Source of the DNA: Ignavibacteriales bacterium
GTDB lineage: Bacteria; Bacteroidota; Ignavibacteria; UBA10030
Reading direction: 5' to 3'
Length of the DNA: 12,543 nucleotides
NCBI GenBank assembly: GCA_016218005.1
Contig: JACRFF010000135.1
Coordinates: 1-12,543 of the forward strand
Positions within the stretch are counted from its first letter, which is position 1. Each line of letters opens with the position of its first letter. The translations under genes and the position numbers were made by a program. The notes below the pieces were generated by a model. That model worked only from the letters and a program-made list of their open reading frames with translations. It was not told the DNA's origin and searched no databases. Positions 3,157-11,959 of the stretch are shown here, piece after piece.

Positions 3157-4248
3157 ATGCGCTACATCGACGAATTCCGGAACGAAGCCGCGGCACGAGC
3201 GCTCTCGAAAGAAATACGCGCGGTTACCACCAAGCCATGGATACTGATGGAAATTTGCGGCGGCCAAACGCACACGATCGTCAAATTCGGTATTGAAGAG
3301 CTTCTTCCGAAGGAGCTAACGCTGGTGCACGGTCCCGGCTGTCCGGTCTGCGTTACGCCGTTGGAGATCATTGATAAAGCCATCGCCATTGCTTCGCGTC
3401 CCGAGGTCGTCTTTACTTCGTTCGGCGATATGCTGCGCGTGCCCGGCTCTTCCACCGATTTATTGAGCGTGAAAGCCAAAGGCGGCAACGTGCGGATGGT
3501 CTATTCGCCGCTCGACGCCGTGAAACTTGCGCAGCAGCATCCTGATAAGCAGGTCGTGTTCTTCGGCGTCGGGTTCGAGACGACTGCACCGGCGAACGCC
3601 ATGTCGGTCTACCAGGCCAAACAATTAGGACTCAAGAATTTCTCGCTGCTGTCGTCGCATGTGCTTGTGCCGCCGGCGATGGATGCATTGCTTTCATCGC
3701 ACACCAATCTGGTACAAGGATTTCTCGCCGCCGGCCACGTCTGCACGGTGATGGGGTATGAAGAATATTTTTCACTGGCGAAGAAGTACCGCGTGCCGAT
3801 CGTCGTAACGGGATTCGAGCCGGTCGATATTCTCCAAGGCGTGCTGATGACGGTGAAGCAACTCGAATCTCAACGGCACGAGGTGGAAAATCAGTACGTT
3901 CGATCCGTTCGGCAAGAAGGCAACGTTCCTGCTCAGCAACTCATCAAGAAAGTATTTACAACGACCGATAGAAAGTGGCGCGGCATTGGAGAAATACCGA
4001 TGAGCGGTTATCGGTTGAGCGACGAGTATGCGGAGTTCGACGCCGAGAAACGGTTTGACGTGCAGACCGTGACGGTGGAGGAATCACCGCTGTGCATTGC
4101 CGGACTTGTGTTGCAAGGATTGAAGAAGCCGCACGAGTGTTCCGCGTTCGGCAATCAGTGTACGCCTGAACGACCGCTCGGCGCGCCGATGGTGTCTTCC
4201 GAAGGTGCGTGCGCTGCGTACTTCCACTATCGCCGCGTGAAACAGTAG
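3157..4248 (+). CDS. hypD: Hydrogenase formation protein HypD
   Basis: HypD is the Fe-S protein that, with HypC, assembles Fe(CN)2CO for [NiFe]-hydrogenase maturation. At 363 residues it is of normal length. It carries the three conserved motifs: EICGGQTHT with Cys34, [11 protein letters not shown] with Cys62 and Cys65, and [22 protein letters not shown] and [11 protein letters not shown] are also typical. Four C-terminal cysteines (313, 328, 335, 352) match the usual [4Fe-4S] ligand cluster. A GGAG site lies just before the ATG and the gene follows the AhpD-like gene by 15 bases. It is the last gene of the left hyp block: the next gene is convergent, and hypE sits about 3.7 kb farther on. 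Confidence 0.97.
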
Positions 4249-6643: not shown

Positions 6644-6771
6644 CACGGGTTGTGGTTGGTGAATGAACGACATTGGGTCTGGGGTGTAACTCCCTTTCAG
6701 CGTGGAGAGGCAAGAAGCGAGTCCGTGTTTTTTCTAGTTCCCCCTCTCCGCAAGGAAACCTGCGAGTTCAA

Positions 6772-7929
6772 ATGAATCTCTCCACGACATCTTCTGAATC
6801 TACGAGGACTGTCCGCACATTTGCCGCAGCCTCCTTTCTCAACGACTTCGGCTCGGATATCATCTATCCACTCTGGCCTACGTTCGTCACGACCGTTCTC
6901 GGGGCAAATGTTGCCGCGCTTGGACTGATCGATGGATTGGGCGACGCCATCGTTTCGATTTCGCAAGCGATCTCCGGCTATTGGTCGGACCGATTGCGGA
7001 AAAGAAAGGTCTTCATCTGGGCCGGCTATGCATGTGGGGCGATCTCACGGGTCGGGTATGCCATCGTGACGCTGTGGCCGCAGGCGATCGTGTTCCGCGT
7101 GCTCGACCGTGCAGGGAAGATGCGCGGCTCACCGCGCGACGCCATGATTGCCGAAGCGTCAACTGCCGGCAATCGGGGACGCAACTTCGGTTTGTTGCGC
7201 ACAATGGACAACCTCGGTGCGGTGTGCGGCATTACGGTTGCGATTGTCTTCTTCGATTGGGGTTACCGAACGCTCTTTCTTCTTGCCGCCATTCCGACCG
7301 TGCTCTGAGTGATCCTCGTTCTAACTTCCATTCGCGAGCATCCAAACCGCGCAACGATCTTCAAGGGGATTTCGCTGAAACATCTGAGCAGGAATTTCTA
7401 TCTCTTCCTGATGGTCAATGCAATCTTTGCGCTTGGTTCGTTCAGCTACTCATTCTTGTTGCTGTACGCAAAGCAGTTCGGCTATCAAGCATCGCGATTG
7501 CCGGTCTTGTATCTCGTGTTCACCGTGGCCGCGGCACTGGGGTCATTCCCGTTCGGTAAGCTCTCGGATGCGGTCGGCAGAAAGCGCCTGATGATGGCGG
7601 CGTTTCTCTTTTGGGGAGCGACGTGTTTGACGCTAATGATATGGCAATCGTTGGCGGGAGTGGCAGCAGCGTTCGTGCTTTACGGTCTGCACAAAGCAGC
7701 ACTGGAGCCGGTGCAGAAAACGCTGGTTGCCGAACTTGCACCGGCCGACCTGAAAGCAAGTACGCTTGGCGGATTCCAGATGGTGATTGGCTTGTGCGCT
7801 TTGCCATCATCGCTGGCGGCTGGACTTTTATGGCAGAATGTTTCTATCTTAGCGCCGTTGGTAGTGTCAATGGCTCTGACTGCCATTGCCCTTGTGATGA
7901 TGGTGTTTGTGAAAGAACACACACGGTAG
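6772..7929 (+). pseudogene. MFS transporter interrupted by an in-frame TGA
   Basis: The two halves read in one frame and together give a normal 12-helix major facilitator protein of about 385 codons. The first half (178 residues) begins MNLSTTSSES at ATG 6772 and includes the loop 2-3 signature GYWSDRLRKRK. The second half (206 residues) includes the matching repeat FGKLSDAVGRKR and continues to the TAG at 7927-7929. TGA at 7306-7308 cuts predicted helix 6 (LFLLAAIPTVL, stop, VILVLTSI). There is no frameshift. A GTG follows the stop immediately at 7309, so some reinitiation is conceivable, but no ribosome binding site is apparent and the second half would begin inside a helix. A nonsense mutation or a sequencing error is the simplest reading. 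The substrate is unknown. A weak GAG lies near the first ATG; hypE starts 16 bases after the end. Confidence 0.8.
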
Positions 7930-7945
7930 CTGGAGAACGACAACT

Positions 7946-9007
7946 ATGGCTGACACACCAATTGATTTCACCGGGCTTGCCTGCCCGATTCCGATTTCCG
8001 AATACCCGCACGTGTCGCTTGCCCACGGCGGCGGCGGAAAACTTTCTCAACAGCTCATCCAGAAAATGTTCGTGTCGCAATTTGCGAACGAGCAACTCTC
8101 GGCAATGCACGACGGCGCGATGTTCACGATCGACGGCGCTCGGCTTGCCTTCTCCACAGATTCCTACGTGATCAACCCGATATTCTTTCCCGGAGGGAAC
8201 ATCGGAGAGCTTGCGGTCAACGGCACGGTAAACGACCTTGCGATGTGCGGCGCCAAGCCGCTCTATCTTGCCGTAGGACTCATTATTGAAGAGGGGTTGT
8301 CGATGGATGAATTATGGAAGATCGTGCAATCCATGCAGAAGGCGGCACAACGCGCCGGGGTCGTGCTTGCCACCGGCGATACCAAGGTGGTTGACCGAGG
8401 CAAAGGAGACAAGATTTTTATCAACACCAGCGGCATTGGAACGATTTCGGAGGGCATCAACATTCATCCCCAACGCGCGCGGGTTGGCGACAAGATTCTT
8501 GTGAGCGGCAAGATTGCCCAGCACGGCATTGCCATCATGTCGGTGCGTGAAGGATTGGAGTTTGAATCTGAGATGAAAAGCGATACTGCCCCGCTCAACG
8601 AATTAGTTAAAGCGATGCTCGCGGCTTGCAAAGATATTCATGTGTTGCGCGACCCGACGCGCGGCGGTGTGGCAAGCACACTCAATGAAATTGCCGAAAG
8701 TGCGCACGTCGGGATTGCGATTCGGGAAGAAACGATTCCCATTGAAGGCGCCGTGCGCGGTGCGTGCGAAATTCTCGGACTCGACCCGCTGTATGTGGCG
8801 AACGAGGGGAAGCTCATCGCCTTTGTCCCGCAGGCTTACTCCAATCAAGTGTTTGCGGCAATGAAGCGACATCCGCTCGGCATCGACGCGGCAATCATTG
8901 GCGAAGTAGTTACCGACCATCCCGGTGCCGTGGTGATGAAGACGCGCATCGGCGGTTCGCGCGTGGTGGATATGCTTTCCGGCGAGCAGCTACCGAGGAT
9001 TTGTTAG
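7946..9007 (+). CDS. hypE: Hydrogenase expression/formation protein HypE
   Basis: HypE receives the carbamoyl group from HypF on its C-terminal cysteine and dehydrates it with ATP to a thiocyanate, the CN donor for Fe in the HypC-HypD complex. The 353-residue product has the PurM/SelD-like fold: an N-terminal glycine-rich AHGGGGKLSQQ, FSTDSYVINP, GTVNDLAMCGAKP, LATGDTKVVDRG, and DPTRGGVASTLNEIA. It ends in the diagnostic PRIC, so the acceptor Cys353 is intact. A GGAG site near 7934 precedes the ATG. The gene is separated from hypF-hypD by 3.7 kb of unrelated genes and would depend on readthrough from the M28/MFS region or on an unseen promoter. The last 106 bases (8902-9007) are repeated at 9457-9562. 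Confidence 0.97.
   Translation: MADTPIDFTGLACPIPISEYPHVSLAHGGGGKLSQQLIQKMFVSQFANEQLSAMHDGAMFTIDGARLAFSTDSYVINPIFFPGGNIGELAVNGTVNDLAMCGAKPLYLAVGLIIEEGLSMDELWKIVQSMQKAAQRAGVVLATGDTKVVDRGKGDKIFINTSGIGTISEGINIHPQRARVGDKILVSGKIAQHGIAIMSVREGLEFESEMKSDTAPLNELVKAMLAACKDIHVLRDPTRGGVASTLNEIAESAHVGIAIREETIPIEGAVRGACEILGLDPLYVANEGKLIAFVPQAYSNQVFAAMKRHPLGIDAAIIGEVVTDHPGAVVMKTRIGGSRVVDMLSGEQLPRIC
8902..9007 (+). repeat. Direct repeat copy 1: 3' end of functional hypE
   Basis: This is the hypE end from the codons EVV to the TAG stop. It aligns without gaps to 9457-9562, with 89 of 106 bases identical. Homology ends at the stop codon on the right and starts abruptly at CGAAGTAGTT on the left. Confidence 0.9.
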
Positions 9008-9058
9008 TGCGCTCGTGCCGCTTGCGTCTCACGTGCGGAGTGCGTAGATTTATTTGGA

Positions 9059-9077
9059 GCAGGAGGTCGGTTCCTGC
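9059..9077 (+). other. Leader hairpin upstream of the small lipoprotein gene
   Basis: GCAGGA (9059-9064) and TCCTGC (9072-9077) form a perfect 6-bp stem with a 7-base loop, 21 bases before the ATG of the lipoprotein gene. There is no T-run. It may mark the 5' leader of that gene or the end of hypE transcripts; the sequence does not decide. Confidence 0.3.
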
Positions 9078-9098
9078 CGCAGCAACACGGAGGTGAAC

Positions 9099-9464
9099 AT
9101 GAACGCGCAACGTACTCTCGCCCTGTGGTTGGTCGCTCTGCTCGTATTCTCTTGTCGCGACATGGGTAATGTTGCCTCGTTGCCGCCCGTCGATAGATCG
9201 AGCAGCAACGGAATGGTTTGGGTCTTCCAGATTTTCTCCGGAGGGAGGCAATGCGATACCTCTTCTCATTATACTCCCCCCGACGTCCGAGAACTTCTTG
9301 GAACGGCAAGCGTTGGTGTCAGTGATACGAAGATTGTCGGGCTCGCTGTTTGCGCAGCGTGCGGTTGCCCAACCTACGCGGCAAATCATTATGCACTCAT
9401 TCAGGCGTACGACCTGGAGAAAGCACAGGGTTTGGGATTCCAGAGAAGTGAAGAGCCGAAGTAG
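9099..9464 (+). CDS. Small cysteine-rich predicted lipoprotein, unknown function
   Basis: This is a 121-residue protein I cannot assign to a characterised family. The ATG at 9099 is chosen because GGAGG lies 5 bases upstream and the product then begins with a hydrophobic signal peptide ending LLVFSC, predicting lipidation at Cys19. The mature part has Cys52 (GGRQC) and a C-terminal CAACGC (Cys85, Cys88, Cys90), suggesting metal or Fe-S binding or disulfides. The tail NHYALIQAYDLEKAQGLGF is helical and polar. The gene lies between hypE and a second copy of the hypE end. Its last codon and TAG stop (9460-9464) lie within that repeat, read in a different frame from hypE, so the present C-terminus may have been fixed by the rearrangement. 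The tight ribosome binding site and clean signal peptide argue that it is a real gene. Its link to hydrogenase is by position only. Confidence 0.7.
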   Translation: MNAQRTLALWLVALLVFSCRDMGNVASLPPVDRSSSNGMVWVFQIFSGGRQCDTSSHYTPPDVRELLGTASVGVSDTKIVGLAVCAACGCPTYAANHYALIQAYDLEKAQGLGFQRSEEPK

Positions 9465-9562
9465 TTGCCGACCATCCCAGCGCCGTGGTGATGAAGACGT
9501 GCATTGGCGGTTTACGCGTGGTGGATATGCTCAGCGGCGAGCAGTTGCCAAGAATTTGCTGA
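9457..9562 (+). pseudogene. Remnant of a second hypE: diverged 34-codon 3' end
   Basis: Reading from 9458 gives EVVADHPSAVVMKTCIGG then LRVVDMLSGEQLPRIC and TGA, against EVVTDHPGAVVMKTRIGG and SRVVDMLSGEQLPRIC in hypE. Thirty of 34 residues are the same. Seventeen bases of 106 differ and there are no indels. Seven of the eleven changed sense codons are synonymous, including a Ser codon changed from TCC to AGC, and the stop differs (TGA against TAG). This pattern means the copy diverged while under protein-level selection, so it came from another working hypE rather than from a recent local duplication. No start codon or upstream hypE sequence is attached, so it cannot be expressed as HypE. 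Confidence 0.88.
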
Positions 9563-9823
9563 GGTAGTGGGTTGATTCACTCCGTCTTCCAATCTTGGAT
9601 CGACCGATGGCACTTCCGCCAATCACTTGATTTGCAAGTCTGGCTAAACGTTCAACACGCTCCCGCTTTCAAGAAAGTCAGTTCATCCTTTCTCATTTCT
9701 GCCAAGCCTTCCGTTGTCGTCAATCTTTGCCGCAACGATTTCAGTTTGATTTCCCCATCAGCGTTTGGCATACGCCTTGAAAAGAGTGAACCGGGTTTTC
9801 TATTCATCTGATAGGAGCTATCC
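9563..9823 (+). other. 261-base stretch without a convincing gene
   Basis: No confident gene, RNA or terminator is seen. The short open frames on both strands lack good starts and recognisable motifs. A 5-bp hairpin (ACTTG at 9625-9629, CAAGT at 9635-9639) has no T-run. The promoter of the oxidoreductase operon should lie here, but the best candidate (TTGATT at 9746-9751 with CATACG at 9769-9774) is weak. Two joined - strand frames read fairly coherently and may be gene debris (see findings). Confidence 0.5.
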
Positions 9824-10078
9824 ATGATTCGAGGAACGATCATCGTGGCGCAAGATACCTGCAAAGGATGCGAGCTGTGTATCGTTGCGTGTCCGCAGGA
9901 TTGTATTGAGATGTCGGAACGCCTGAATGTGAGGGGCTACCGATATGCTCAGTTGAAGAACGATACGTGCACCGGCTGTGTGAACTGTGCACTTGTCTGT
10001 CCCGATGTCGCCATCACCGTGTATCGCCAGCCGAAAAGTACTTCCAAAAAAATTCAACCAGCAGCCGCAGTTGCCTGA
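9824..10078 (+). CDS. 2-oxoacid:ferredoxin oxidoreductase delta subunit, 2x[4Fe-4S] ferredoxin
   Basis: This 84-residue electron-transfer subunit of a four-subunit 2-oxoacid:ferredoxin oxidoreductase has two complete CxxCxxCxxxCP motifs: Cys13, 16, 19 and 23 (CKGCELCIVACP) and Cys49, 52, 55 and 59 (CTGCVNCALVCP). It is therefore a bacterial-type 2x[4Fe-4S] ferredoxin that passes electrons from the TPP and internal cluster site to free ferredoxin. An AGGAG site at 9813-9817 lies 6 bases before the ATG. The alpha-subunit gene begins 18 bases after the TGA, and the delta-alpha-beta order identifies it as a subunit rather than a free ferredoxin. It is probably the first gene of its operon. KorD, PorD and VorD are equivalent names; substrate cannot be read from this subunit. 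Confidence 0.92.
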   Translation: MIRGTIIVAQDTCKGCELCIVACPQDCIEMSERLNVRGYRYAQLKNDTCTGCVNCALVCPDVAITVYRQPKSTSKKIQPAAAVA

Positions 10079-10096
10079 GCCAAAGGAGAACGACGA

Positions 10097-11182
10097 GTGG
10101 AAGCGAACGAGCCAGATGTGAGAATCATGAAAGGGAATGAAGCGTTAGCCGAGGCGGCGCTTCGTGCCGGCATGCACGCATATTTCGGATATCCGATCAC
10201 GCCGCAGTCGGAAATTCTTGAATACTTGATGGCGCACGGACAGAAGCGCGGCGCCATCGTTCTGCAAGCCGAAAGCGAAGTTGCGTCCATCAACATGGTC
10301 TACGGCGCGGCAGGGGCCGGACGAAGAGTAATGATCACGTCGTCGAGCCCCGGCGTCAGCTTGATGATGGAGGGATTGTCGTACATCGCGGCGGCGGAAT
10401 TGCCGTGCTTAGTGGCGAACATTCAACGCGGCGGTCCCGGTCTCGGCACGATTCAACCGTCGCAAGGTGATTATTTCCAAGCCACCAAGGGGGGCGGGCA
10501 CGGCGATTATCATCTCATCGTTCTTGCGCCGGCGTCGGTGCAGGAGATGGCAGACTTCGTGTTCGATGGATTTCGTTTGGCGGAGACGTACCGCAATCCG
10601 GCGATGATTCTTGCCGATGGCGCGCTCGGCCAGATGATGGAGAAGCTCGTGTTGCCGCCGGCAGGTTCGCTGCCGCATCGTGTACCGGAGTGGGCTACCG
10701 TTGGCAAACCGAAAAAACGCGAGCGCAATATTATTACCTCGTTGCATATTGAACCGGAGAAGATGGAACAGATCAATCTCCATCTCCAAGAAAAGTACCG
10801 CACGATCCGCGAGAAGGAAGTTCGCTTCGAAACCTTCCACACCGACGACGCCGACATCATTCTGGTGGCGTTCGGTCTCAGCTCCCGCATCTGCCAAAAG
10901 ACGGTGGAGCTTGCGCGTGAGAAAAACATCAGTGTTGGGCTTGTCCGGCCCATCACGCTGTACCCGTTTCCGAAATCAATTCTCAACACACTTGCCGACA
11001 TTGCGAACGCATTTCTCGTCGTGGAAATGAACGCCGGACAAATGGTGGAGGACGTCCAGTTGGCGGTGAACGGCAAGAAGCCTGTGTACTTCAAAGGTCG
11101 GATGGGAGGCATGATTCCCTCGCCCGAAGAAGTATTGCGCGAAGTCGAACTCATCGCAGAGCATCACACGGTTCAAGCATAA
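10097..11182 (+). CDS. vorB: 2-oxoacid:ferredoxin oxidoreductase alpha subunit (VorB-like)
   Basis: This 361-residue alpha subunit forms, with the beta subunit, the TPP-dependent active site for oxidative decarboxylation of a 2-oxoacid to acyl-CoA. The N-terminal pyrimidine-binding domain shows KGNEALAEAALRAG, FGYPITPQSEI (residues 30-40), AESEVASINMVYGAAGAG, SSSPGVSLMMEGLSYIA, RGGPGLGTIQPSQGDY and KGGGHGDY. The transketolase-C-like domain follows from about residue 190. The wording is closest to what I know as the VorB family (3-methyl-2-oxobutanoate, i.e. branched-chain 2-oxoacids), but homologues annotated KorA for 2-oxoglutarate look similar, so the substrate is uncertain. The start is GTG at 10097, with AAAGGAG about 9 bases upstream. 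The alternative ATG at 10127 would remove ten unconserved residues. The beta gene follows after 9 bases. Confidence 0.93.
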   Translation: MEANEPDVRIMKGNEALAEAALRAGMHAYFGYPITPQSEILEYLMAHGQKRGAIVLQAESEVASINMVYGAAGAGRRVMITSSSPGVSLMMEGLSYIAAAELPCLVANIQRGGPGLGTIQPSQGDYFQATKGGGHGDYHLIVLAPASVQEMADFVFDGFRLAETYRNPAMILADGALGQMMEKLVLPPAGSLPHRVPEWATVGKPKKRERNIITSLHIEPEKMEQINLHLQEKYRTIREKEVRFETFHTDDADIILVAFGLSSRICQKTVELAREKNISVGLVRPITLYPFPKSILNTLADIANAFLVVEMNAGQMVEDVQLAVNGKKPVYFKGRMGGMIPSPEEVLREVELIAEHHTVQA

Positions 11183-11191
11183 GAGGCGGCT

Positions 11192-11959
11192 ATGACACAA
11201 GTGATCGAAGGAATGGAACTCGTTTACGAAAAACCGCAGACGATGACCGACGCGTACCTGCACTACTGTCCGGGGTGCGGACACAGCGTGGCGCATCGAC
11301 TTCTAATGGAAGTGGTGCAGGAGATGGGCATTCAGGATCGAACCGTCGGCGTGGCGCCGGTGGGTTGCTCGGTGTTTGCCTACAATTACATGAACATCGA
11401 TATGCAAGAGGCGGCGCACGGACGCGCCTGCGCAGTAGCGACCGGCGTGAAGCGCGTTATGCCCGACAAGTTCATCTTCACGTATCAAGGCGACGGCGAT
11501 CTTGCCGCCATCGGCACGGCGGAAACGGTGCACACGATCAATCGCGGCGAAAATATTCTGATCGTCTTCATCAATAACGGCGTGTACGGCATGACCGGCG
11601 GACAGATGGCGCCGACGACGCTCATTGGCATGAAGACCACCACGTCGCCGTATGGCCGCGAGCAAGCGACGATGGGCTATCCGTTGAAGATCACCGAAAT
11701 GATTTCTGTCTTGCCGGGGGCGTTCTACGTTACGCGGCAAGCGGTGCACACCGCGGCGGCAGTGCGGAAAACAAAGAAGGCGTTCGAGAAAGCGTTCGAG
11801 TATCAAAAACTGAATCGCGGCACCTGTTTCATTGAAATTGTTTCCAATTGTCCCAGCGGCTGGAAGATGACGCCGGTGGAATCCAACGAGTGGATGGAAA
11901 AGAACATGTTTCCGCTCTATCCGTTGGGAGACATCAAAGTTCCCACACAACTTAACTAA
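11192..11959 (+). CDS. 2-oxoacid:ferredoxin oxidoreductase beta subunit, TPP-binding
   Basis: This 255-residue beta subunit binds thiamine pyrophosphate and the catalytic-site [4Fe-4S] cluster. YCPGCGH (Cys26, Cys29), VGCS (Cys59) and SNCPSGW (Cys220) supply the usual four cluster cysteines. GDGDLAAIG (100-108) followed by NILIVFINNGVYGMTGGQ (Asn128-129) is the TPP and Mg motif. Length is typical of the separate beta chains of Kor/Vor-type enzymes. The gene begins 9 bases after the alpha subunit, with GAGGCGG close to the ATG, and is followed after 9 bases by a small membrane protein instead of the expected gamma subunit. KorB, VorA and PorB are used for this chain in different organisms, so no symbol is given. 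It is cytoplasmic, apart from any contact with the neighbouring membrane protein. Confidence 0.94.
   Translation: MTQVIEGMELVYEKPQTMTDAYLHYCPGCGHSVAHRLLMEVVQEMGIQDRTVGVAPVGCSVFAYNYMNIDMQEAAHGRACAVATGVKRVMPDKFIFTYQGDGDLAAIGTAETVHTINRGENILIVFINNGVYGMTGGQMAPTTLIGMKTTTSPYGREQATMGYPLKITEMISVLPGAFYVTRQAVHTAAAVRKTKKAFEKAFEYQKLNRGTCFIEIVSNCPSGWKMTPVESNEWMEKNMFPLYPLGDIKVPTQLN

Follow-up and report, generated by a model that had tools for sequence, protein, structure and literature searches.

Phage 21 and e14 integrate in the 3' end of icd and carry a replacement for the end that they displace. Other described systems lead to related arrangements. In an E. coli lacZ assay, 56 of 60 clones first taken as one-sided events had, according to the part of PMC3240628 cited here, the product expected from a single crossover of a trimmed and re-circularised molecule, and in the 14 clones that were sequenced the duplicated part of the target measured 109-950 bp. 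A further process, to which PMC3240628 and PMC2884548 both refer, is homology-facilitated illegitimate recombination; it is usually described with a deletion of resident DNA of similar size. Displaced 3' ends are described in the relevant part of PMC5361080 for T6SS effector arrays and, as cited there, for rhs genes.

The window analysed in this study, a stretch of 12,543 nucleotides, makes up an entire contig (G000:C34) in a draft assembly of 383 contigs with an estimated completeness of 81%. The last 106 bases of its hypE gene occur a second time downstream, with 89 identities and no gap (Table 1). In frame, 12 of the 35 codons, including the stop, differ between the two ends, eight of them synonymously and four nonsynonymously (T>A, G>S, R>C and S>L), and 29 of 33 encoded residues are identical. 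The gapless, mainly synonymous recurrence reported in the preliminary description was thereby confirmed. The similarity opens at CGAAGTAG in codon 318 and closes at the stop. It was returned by a repeat finder as the top direct repeat of the window (86% over 102 nt, the next one being 32 nt long), and the best other ungapped match to the 106 bases on both strands of the window reached 46/106. The G+C content of the insert does not differ from that of hypE. Regarding a function of the orphan end, no Rfam match was found up to E 0.5 in positions 8700-10100, and no promoter-like site in positions 8900-9850.

Table 1 Coordinates of the features of the window and of loci compared with it (window positions unless a genome or locus is named)
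Feature	Position	Strand	Basis or remark
hypE, complete, 3' end working-looking	7946..9007	+	ORF; TIGR02124 hypE equivalog, 482.3 bits, residues 22-353
First of the two 106-base hypE ends, in use, stop TAG	8902..9007	+	89/106 identical to 9457-9562
Insert separating the two hypE ends, 449 bases	9008..9456		G+C 0.54-0.59 in windows
Small lipoprotein-like gene, 121 aa, cargo	9099..9464	+	ORF, ATG 9099, stop 9462-9464 in second hypE end
Orphan second hypE end, starts in codon 318, ends TGA	9457..9562	+	Most likely displaced resident end
Ferredoxin and two 2-oxoacid:ferredoxin oxidoreductase subunit genes	9824..11959	+	Directly after hypE in G040
priA, AbiD-like gene and orphan priA end	G008:C15 ~72154-73565	minus	L143-L159
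G082 hyp locus	L244 6628-6717	minus	
G082 hyp locus	L101 ~3302-3410	minus	
G082 hyp locus	L115 1109-3375		

The preliminary description had placed a small lipoprotein gene between the two copies. The spacing of 449 bases stood, but the gene runs on into the second copy, where its stop codon lies. A protein search returned four relatives at E up to 0.001, which were 46-51% identical in alignments, and all five proteins of the family (P0001-P0005) have in common a Cys after the leader and a C-x2-CGCP motif. The C-terminus lies at the usual place of the family (EEPK in the window versus PPK, PP and PPAL), and because it coincides with that of the relatives, the gene looks whole. No Pfam, NCBIfam or PADLOC model matched the protein. 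Matches to it were present in 8 of the 98 genomes of the order, including that of the window, and in none of the seven others did it share a contig with hypE; phages and plasmids gave no match. Two further observations concern the surroundings of the locus. The MFS transporter gene upstream of hypE is split by an in-frame TGA at 7306-7308 (6673-7308 and 7309-7929, same frame), and an MFS relative occupies the same place in G011 and others. Two HupF/HypC-family ORFs overlap head to tail (2228-2437 and 2418-2678, with 36.6 and 99.9 bits).

The distribution of hypE ends was searched with the last 48 residues of HypE as the query. As a result, the end was matched in 70 of 98 genomes of the order, and two matches were found in four of the 70, namely the genome of the window (G000), G017, G059 and G082, with the extra, orphan ends being ~98-106 bases long. 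A profile search of the order at looser limits added only weak hits. The samples of the class and the phylum, in which up to 17 candidates were scored per genome, contained the end in 157 of 391 and 132 of 395 genomes, respectively. A second end was found only in the same four genomes of the class, while the phylum gave, besides G000, a weak second match in G394; with this limit on scoring, some orphan ends may have escaped detection in both samples. No viral contig carrying a hypE end was confirmed among 25 stretches. Two hits came from the phage collection at 49-55% identity, one being an unannotated 8.7-kb record and the other annotated as HypE, and eight plasmid records matched the hypE end alone, six of these being annotated as HypE. 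Several candidates were rejected. Genes with N gaps accounted for the short-frame hypE ends in G074 and G083 and for the split hypE in G027. Further split hits (G004, G009, G031, G071, G088, G091 and others) were interpreted as pieces of split genes or of genes at contig edges, and the weak matches of G078, which looks like a decayed fragment, and G094 did not enter the count.

Genetic context analysis of the other orphan ends revealed differing cargo. In G017, hypE is followed by 5.9 kb encoding a sigma-54 response regulator, three further ORFs and a histidine kinase, then by the orphan end and a methyltransferase gene; its congener G002 has hypE and then directly the same methyltransferase gene, and the bases 3' of the G017 orphan align to this flank. 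In G059, an ORF resembling a Y1 transposase (L098 5262-6053, minus strand; Y1_Tnp 22.9 bits, just below the cut-off of 23) lies between palindromic repeats after hypE and ahead of the orphan end and the flank genes, and in the congeners G035 and G062 hypE adjoins the genes that follow the G059 orphan. The cargo thus varies from the lipoprotein gene of the window to a regulator operon and a Y1-transposase-like gene. In G082, the orphan end stands apart from the whole hypE: it follows a CoA-binding gene and precedes ferredoxin-korABC, and the whole hypE lies 3' of hypD on another contig. Its congener G040 has the order hypD-hypE-ferredoxin-korABC, and in G056 the end of the CoA-binding gene overlaps the start of a full hypE, so that G082 may represent either an insertion or a loss of the hypE body. 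Three contigs of G082 are involved, two with the orphan ends of hypD and hypE and one with the whole hypD-hypE pair, an arrangement that gives the impression of relocated hyp genes. Relative to the stop, the four orphans start at ~-106, -98 to -105, -104 and -106. The four joints fall within ~10 bases of each other, although that of G082 may be no insertion, and in three of the four cases the gene preceding the orphan ends at the joint.

Duplicated gene ends were also sought at other genes. Stop-anchored scans covered 622 kb, consisting mainly of hypE loci and partly of the same genomes twice, and 800 kb of mostly unrelated stretches. A second method was applied to 1.61 Mb, mostly the same stretches with 755 kb new, and a further 360 kb and two priA loci were scanned as well. 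Besides hypE, the cases retained were priA of G008 and a tentative one at an S41 peptidase gene of G033. The order in G008 is priA, an Abi_2/AbiD gene (Pfam 181.6 bits; PADLOC AbiD 247.8 bits), a 127-base orphan priA end and a helicase-like gene named by eye, and the congener G024 has priA directly before the same helicase-like gene. In the tentative case of G033 (G033:C7 ~139977-143713; L221, L222), a DUF5916 gene comes after the S41 peptidase gene, and then a short relic of the end of the latter. Scan hits in repeated stretches of G021 and G014 and short ones in G008 (31 and 44 bases) were dropped, as were single weak hits in G021, G040 and G033, some after being viewed and others on inspection of the hit table.

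When the whole order was searched, priA, which was picked because it was already a hit, had an orphan end in 1 of 86 matching genomes and hypD, tentatively, in 1 of 67 (G082), and a YchF-like gene gave one ambiguous case among 90. The layout is therefore not peculiar to hypE. The corresponding rate for hypE besides the window's genome is 3 of 69, an excess that is suggestive only. The orphan ends at other genes are ~76 to 127 bases long. A second hypD hit in G073 was taken as a split piece. In G028 (L243; G028:C54:45321-45464 and 51898-52014), one copy of the YchF-like gene extends upstream with a probable frameshift in a T run, and a 120-base end almost identical to it abuts a contig edge; this second end was left uncounted.

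In G017, G059 and the priA case, the flanking sequences identify the orphan as the resident end. By analogy with its position relative to the native flanks in G017, G059 and G008, the orphan of the window is most likely the displaced resident end as well. The preliminary description had proposed a search of related genomes for an empty site. Single ends in congeners provided it for G017 and G059, and likewise for priA. For the window itself, whose congeners lie outside the sample, the comparison extends only to G040, a distant genome of the order in which hypE stands directly before the ferredoxin-kor genes.

Whether the two ends stem from one lineage or two was addressed with a tree of 99 bases and 45 rows, which were drawn from hypE loci in part of the 70 genomes and included G082 twice but not its orphan. 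In the window (98/96) and in G059 (97/96) the two ends form sister branches, and in G017 they pair weakly (89/45); the orphan branch is the longer one in all three (window, 0.25 vs 0; G059, 0.29 vs 0.082; G017, 0.14 vs 0.054). Sister ends with a longer orphan branch in the window are what a local duplication followed by decay gives, in which the insertion of unrelated DNA would have entailed a copying of the genome's own hypE end, with decay of the orphan ever since, and they were counted against an insertion that brings an end from elsewhere. The replacements R>C and S>L, which introduce residues absent at those places in the relatives' ends compared, point in the same direction. However, too few amino acids have changed. 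Under a model with a constrained working end (omega 0.05), a neutral orphan, equal time on both branches and kappa 2, the changes observed and expected were 4 and 8.4 in the window (P 0.0053), 1 and 3.6 in G017 (P 0.0255), and 2 and 8.7 in G059 (0/4000 simulations). Moreover, the G017 ends are no closer to each other (90/99) than to the end of the congener G002 (89 and 88/99). The priA pair, with 11 changes against 11.7 expected (P 0.46), does fit local duplication and decay, and this was likewise counted against insertion. On balance, a local duplication is quite unlikely as the origin of the hypE layout. Because fewer amino-acid changes were observed than the neutral-orphan model predicts, the hypE ends seem, judged from their sequences, to have remained working ends for most of the time since they diverged, and the lineages concerned would be nearer to one another than to any other sampled genus. 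The earlier claim of two functional hypE lineages is thus borne out by the synonymous excess but qualified by the sister position of the ends. Sisterhood through a recent local duplication had been named as the outcome that would speak against it; the sisterhood was found, whereas its recent local origin is disfavoured by the same excess.

Two working genes would also be expected if a whole second hypE, either a tandem paralogue or a relative's copy, had once stood 3' of the lipoprotein gene and lost its body, leaving 106 bases; the synonymous divergence fits this history, and at G082 loss of the body is a fair reading, with the orphan directly after the CoA-binding gene whose G056 counterpart overlaps the start of a full hypE. 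Nevertheless, no second full-length hypE was found in the 100 genomes searched, 81 of which had a match, so that the tandem full copies that the preliminary description had considered as its alternative were not encountered. Two events per lineage would be required in several lineages, with the deletion stopping near codon 318 each time, and the gene after the G059 orphan is convergent, so that retention of a promoter offers no reason for keeping the end there. We regard this history as unlikely for the window. The closely spaced orphan starts combined with unrelated cargo, and the mainly synonymous replacement ends, would suit a site-specific integrative element for which the hypE 3' end serves as attachment site and which brings a substitute for that end, its copies being small or decayed or its recombinase acting in trans. 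The unknown element targeting hypE that had been proposed earlier found no such backing in the insert proteins: Pfam detected no integrase in the single insert protein of the window, the five larger ORFs of G017, or the single proteins of the G059, priA/G008 and tentative G033 inserts. The results for viral contigs and the phage collection and the similar ends at other genes also argue against it, and a dedicated element, though possible, is very unlikely.

With no double full hypE in the 100 genomes and no integrase in the insert proteins scanned, an insertion anchored by one homologous end fits best. The earlier reading of the layout as an insertion that brings its own gene end is upheld, with moderate confidence, by the empty sites in the three parallel cases and by the synonymous excess. 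We consider it rather probable that a segment with a close relative's hypE end and its cargo was inserted through homology and displaced the resident end; the direction of transfer, the donor and the route are what we infer from these comparisons. Since the two ends are sisters in the tree, any donor would be nearer than every other sampled genus, and it would most simply have been a member of the same genus, for the window one outside the sample. The donor segment would have carried the 3' end of the relative's hypE and, after it, the lipoprotein gene. The shared hypE end would have anchored it at the end of the resident hypE, and its other end, at the stop codon of the lipoprotein gene, would have been joined with little homology to codon 318 of the resident gene. 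The joint of the window shares CGAAGTAG at most, i.e. at most 8 bases, as judged with the donor sequence itself outside the sample. This would leave hypE with an end that works, then the cargo gene, and the last 106 resident bases as a relic ahead of the ferredoxin-kor genes. Such an insertion could have proceeded by trimming and circularisation of a fragment and its integration through one crossover in the shared end (insertion-duplication), or by one-sided, homology-facilitated illegitimate recombination.

The recurrence of the joint near hypE codon 318 is not accounted for by the known routes compared here, and neither is the ending of the preceding gene at the joint in three of the four cases. 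Random joining predicts no clustering, which counts against the favoured reading. Because the ends at other genes run from ~76 to 127 bases, part of the clustering may come from the least homology that recombines together with the shortest end that the searches detect. A bolder proposal, to which we give only a small chance, is that conserved gene ends, codon 318 of hypE foremost, are recurrent landing sites in the order, at which units of a ~100-base end plus cargo pass between close relatives with no integrase of their own, perhaps helped by a recombinase in trans.

Compared with phage 21 and e14 at icd, the hypE locus shows the same mainly synonymous replacement of a gene end with displacement of the resident one. 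However, no integrase or phage gene was found among the insert proteins scanned, and the cargo consists of one to five ordinary genes. An insert flanked by direct repeats of its target, one of them orphaned, is expected of homology-anchored insertion-duplication and was found in the window. As in the experiments described in the cited part of PMC3240628, a portion of the target is directly repeated on either side of the insert, and one stretch of homology suffices; the substrate there was a plasmid under selection, whereas the event here is natural, with a gene end of ~76-127 bases and two diverged ends. With homology-facilitated illegitimate recombination, as portrayed in the passages cited above, the locus shares one homologous anchor, one low-homology joint and the gain of a foreign gene, but resident DNA is usually described as lost in that process and is kept here, with its end duplicated. 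The rhs and T6SS effector arrays, as presented in the cited part of PMC5361080, resemble it in that cargo arrives together with a new 3' end, while the former end is pushed downstream and orphaned. In contrast, the new end there has a new function under selection, and new and old ends are unlike in sequence and function, whereas the two hypE ends each specify 33 residues of a housekeeping enzyme that are nearly the same, 29 being identical. Among the matches listed for open papers, no title dealt with duplicated housekeeping-gene ends around single passenger genes. Orphan gene ends offer a readable trace of the entry of single genes without phages, plasmids or integrases. Here, empty sites are available for comparison with such traces, and the passengers they point out are an AbiD-like (anti-phage) gene, a regulator operon and the gene for a small lipoprotein. 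If upheld in a larger sample, the codon-318 joint in hypE would indicate a site preference beyond what the known recombination routes predict.
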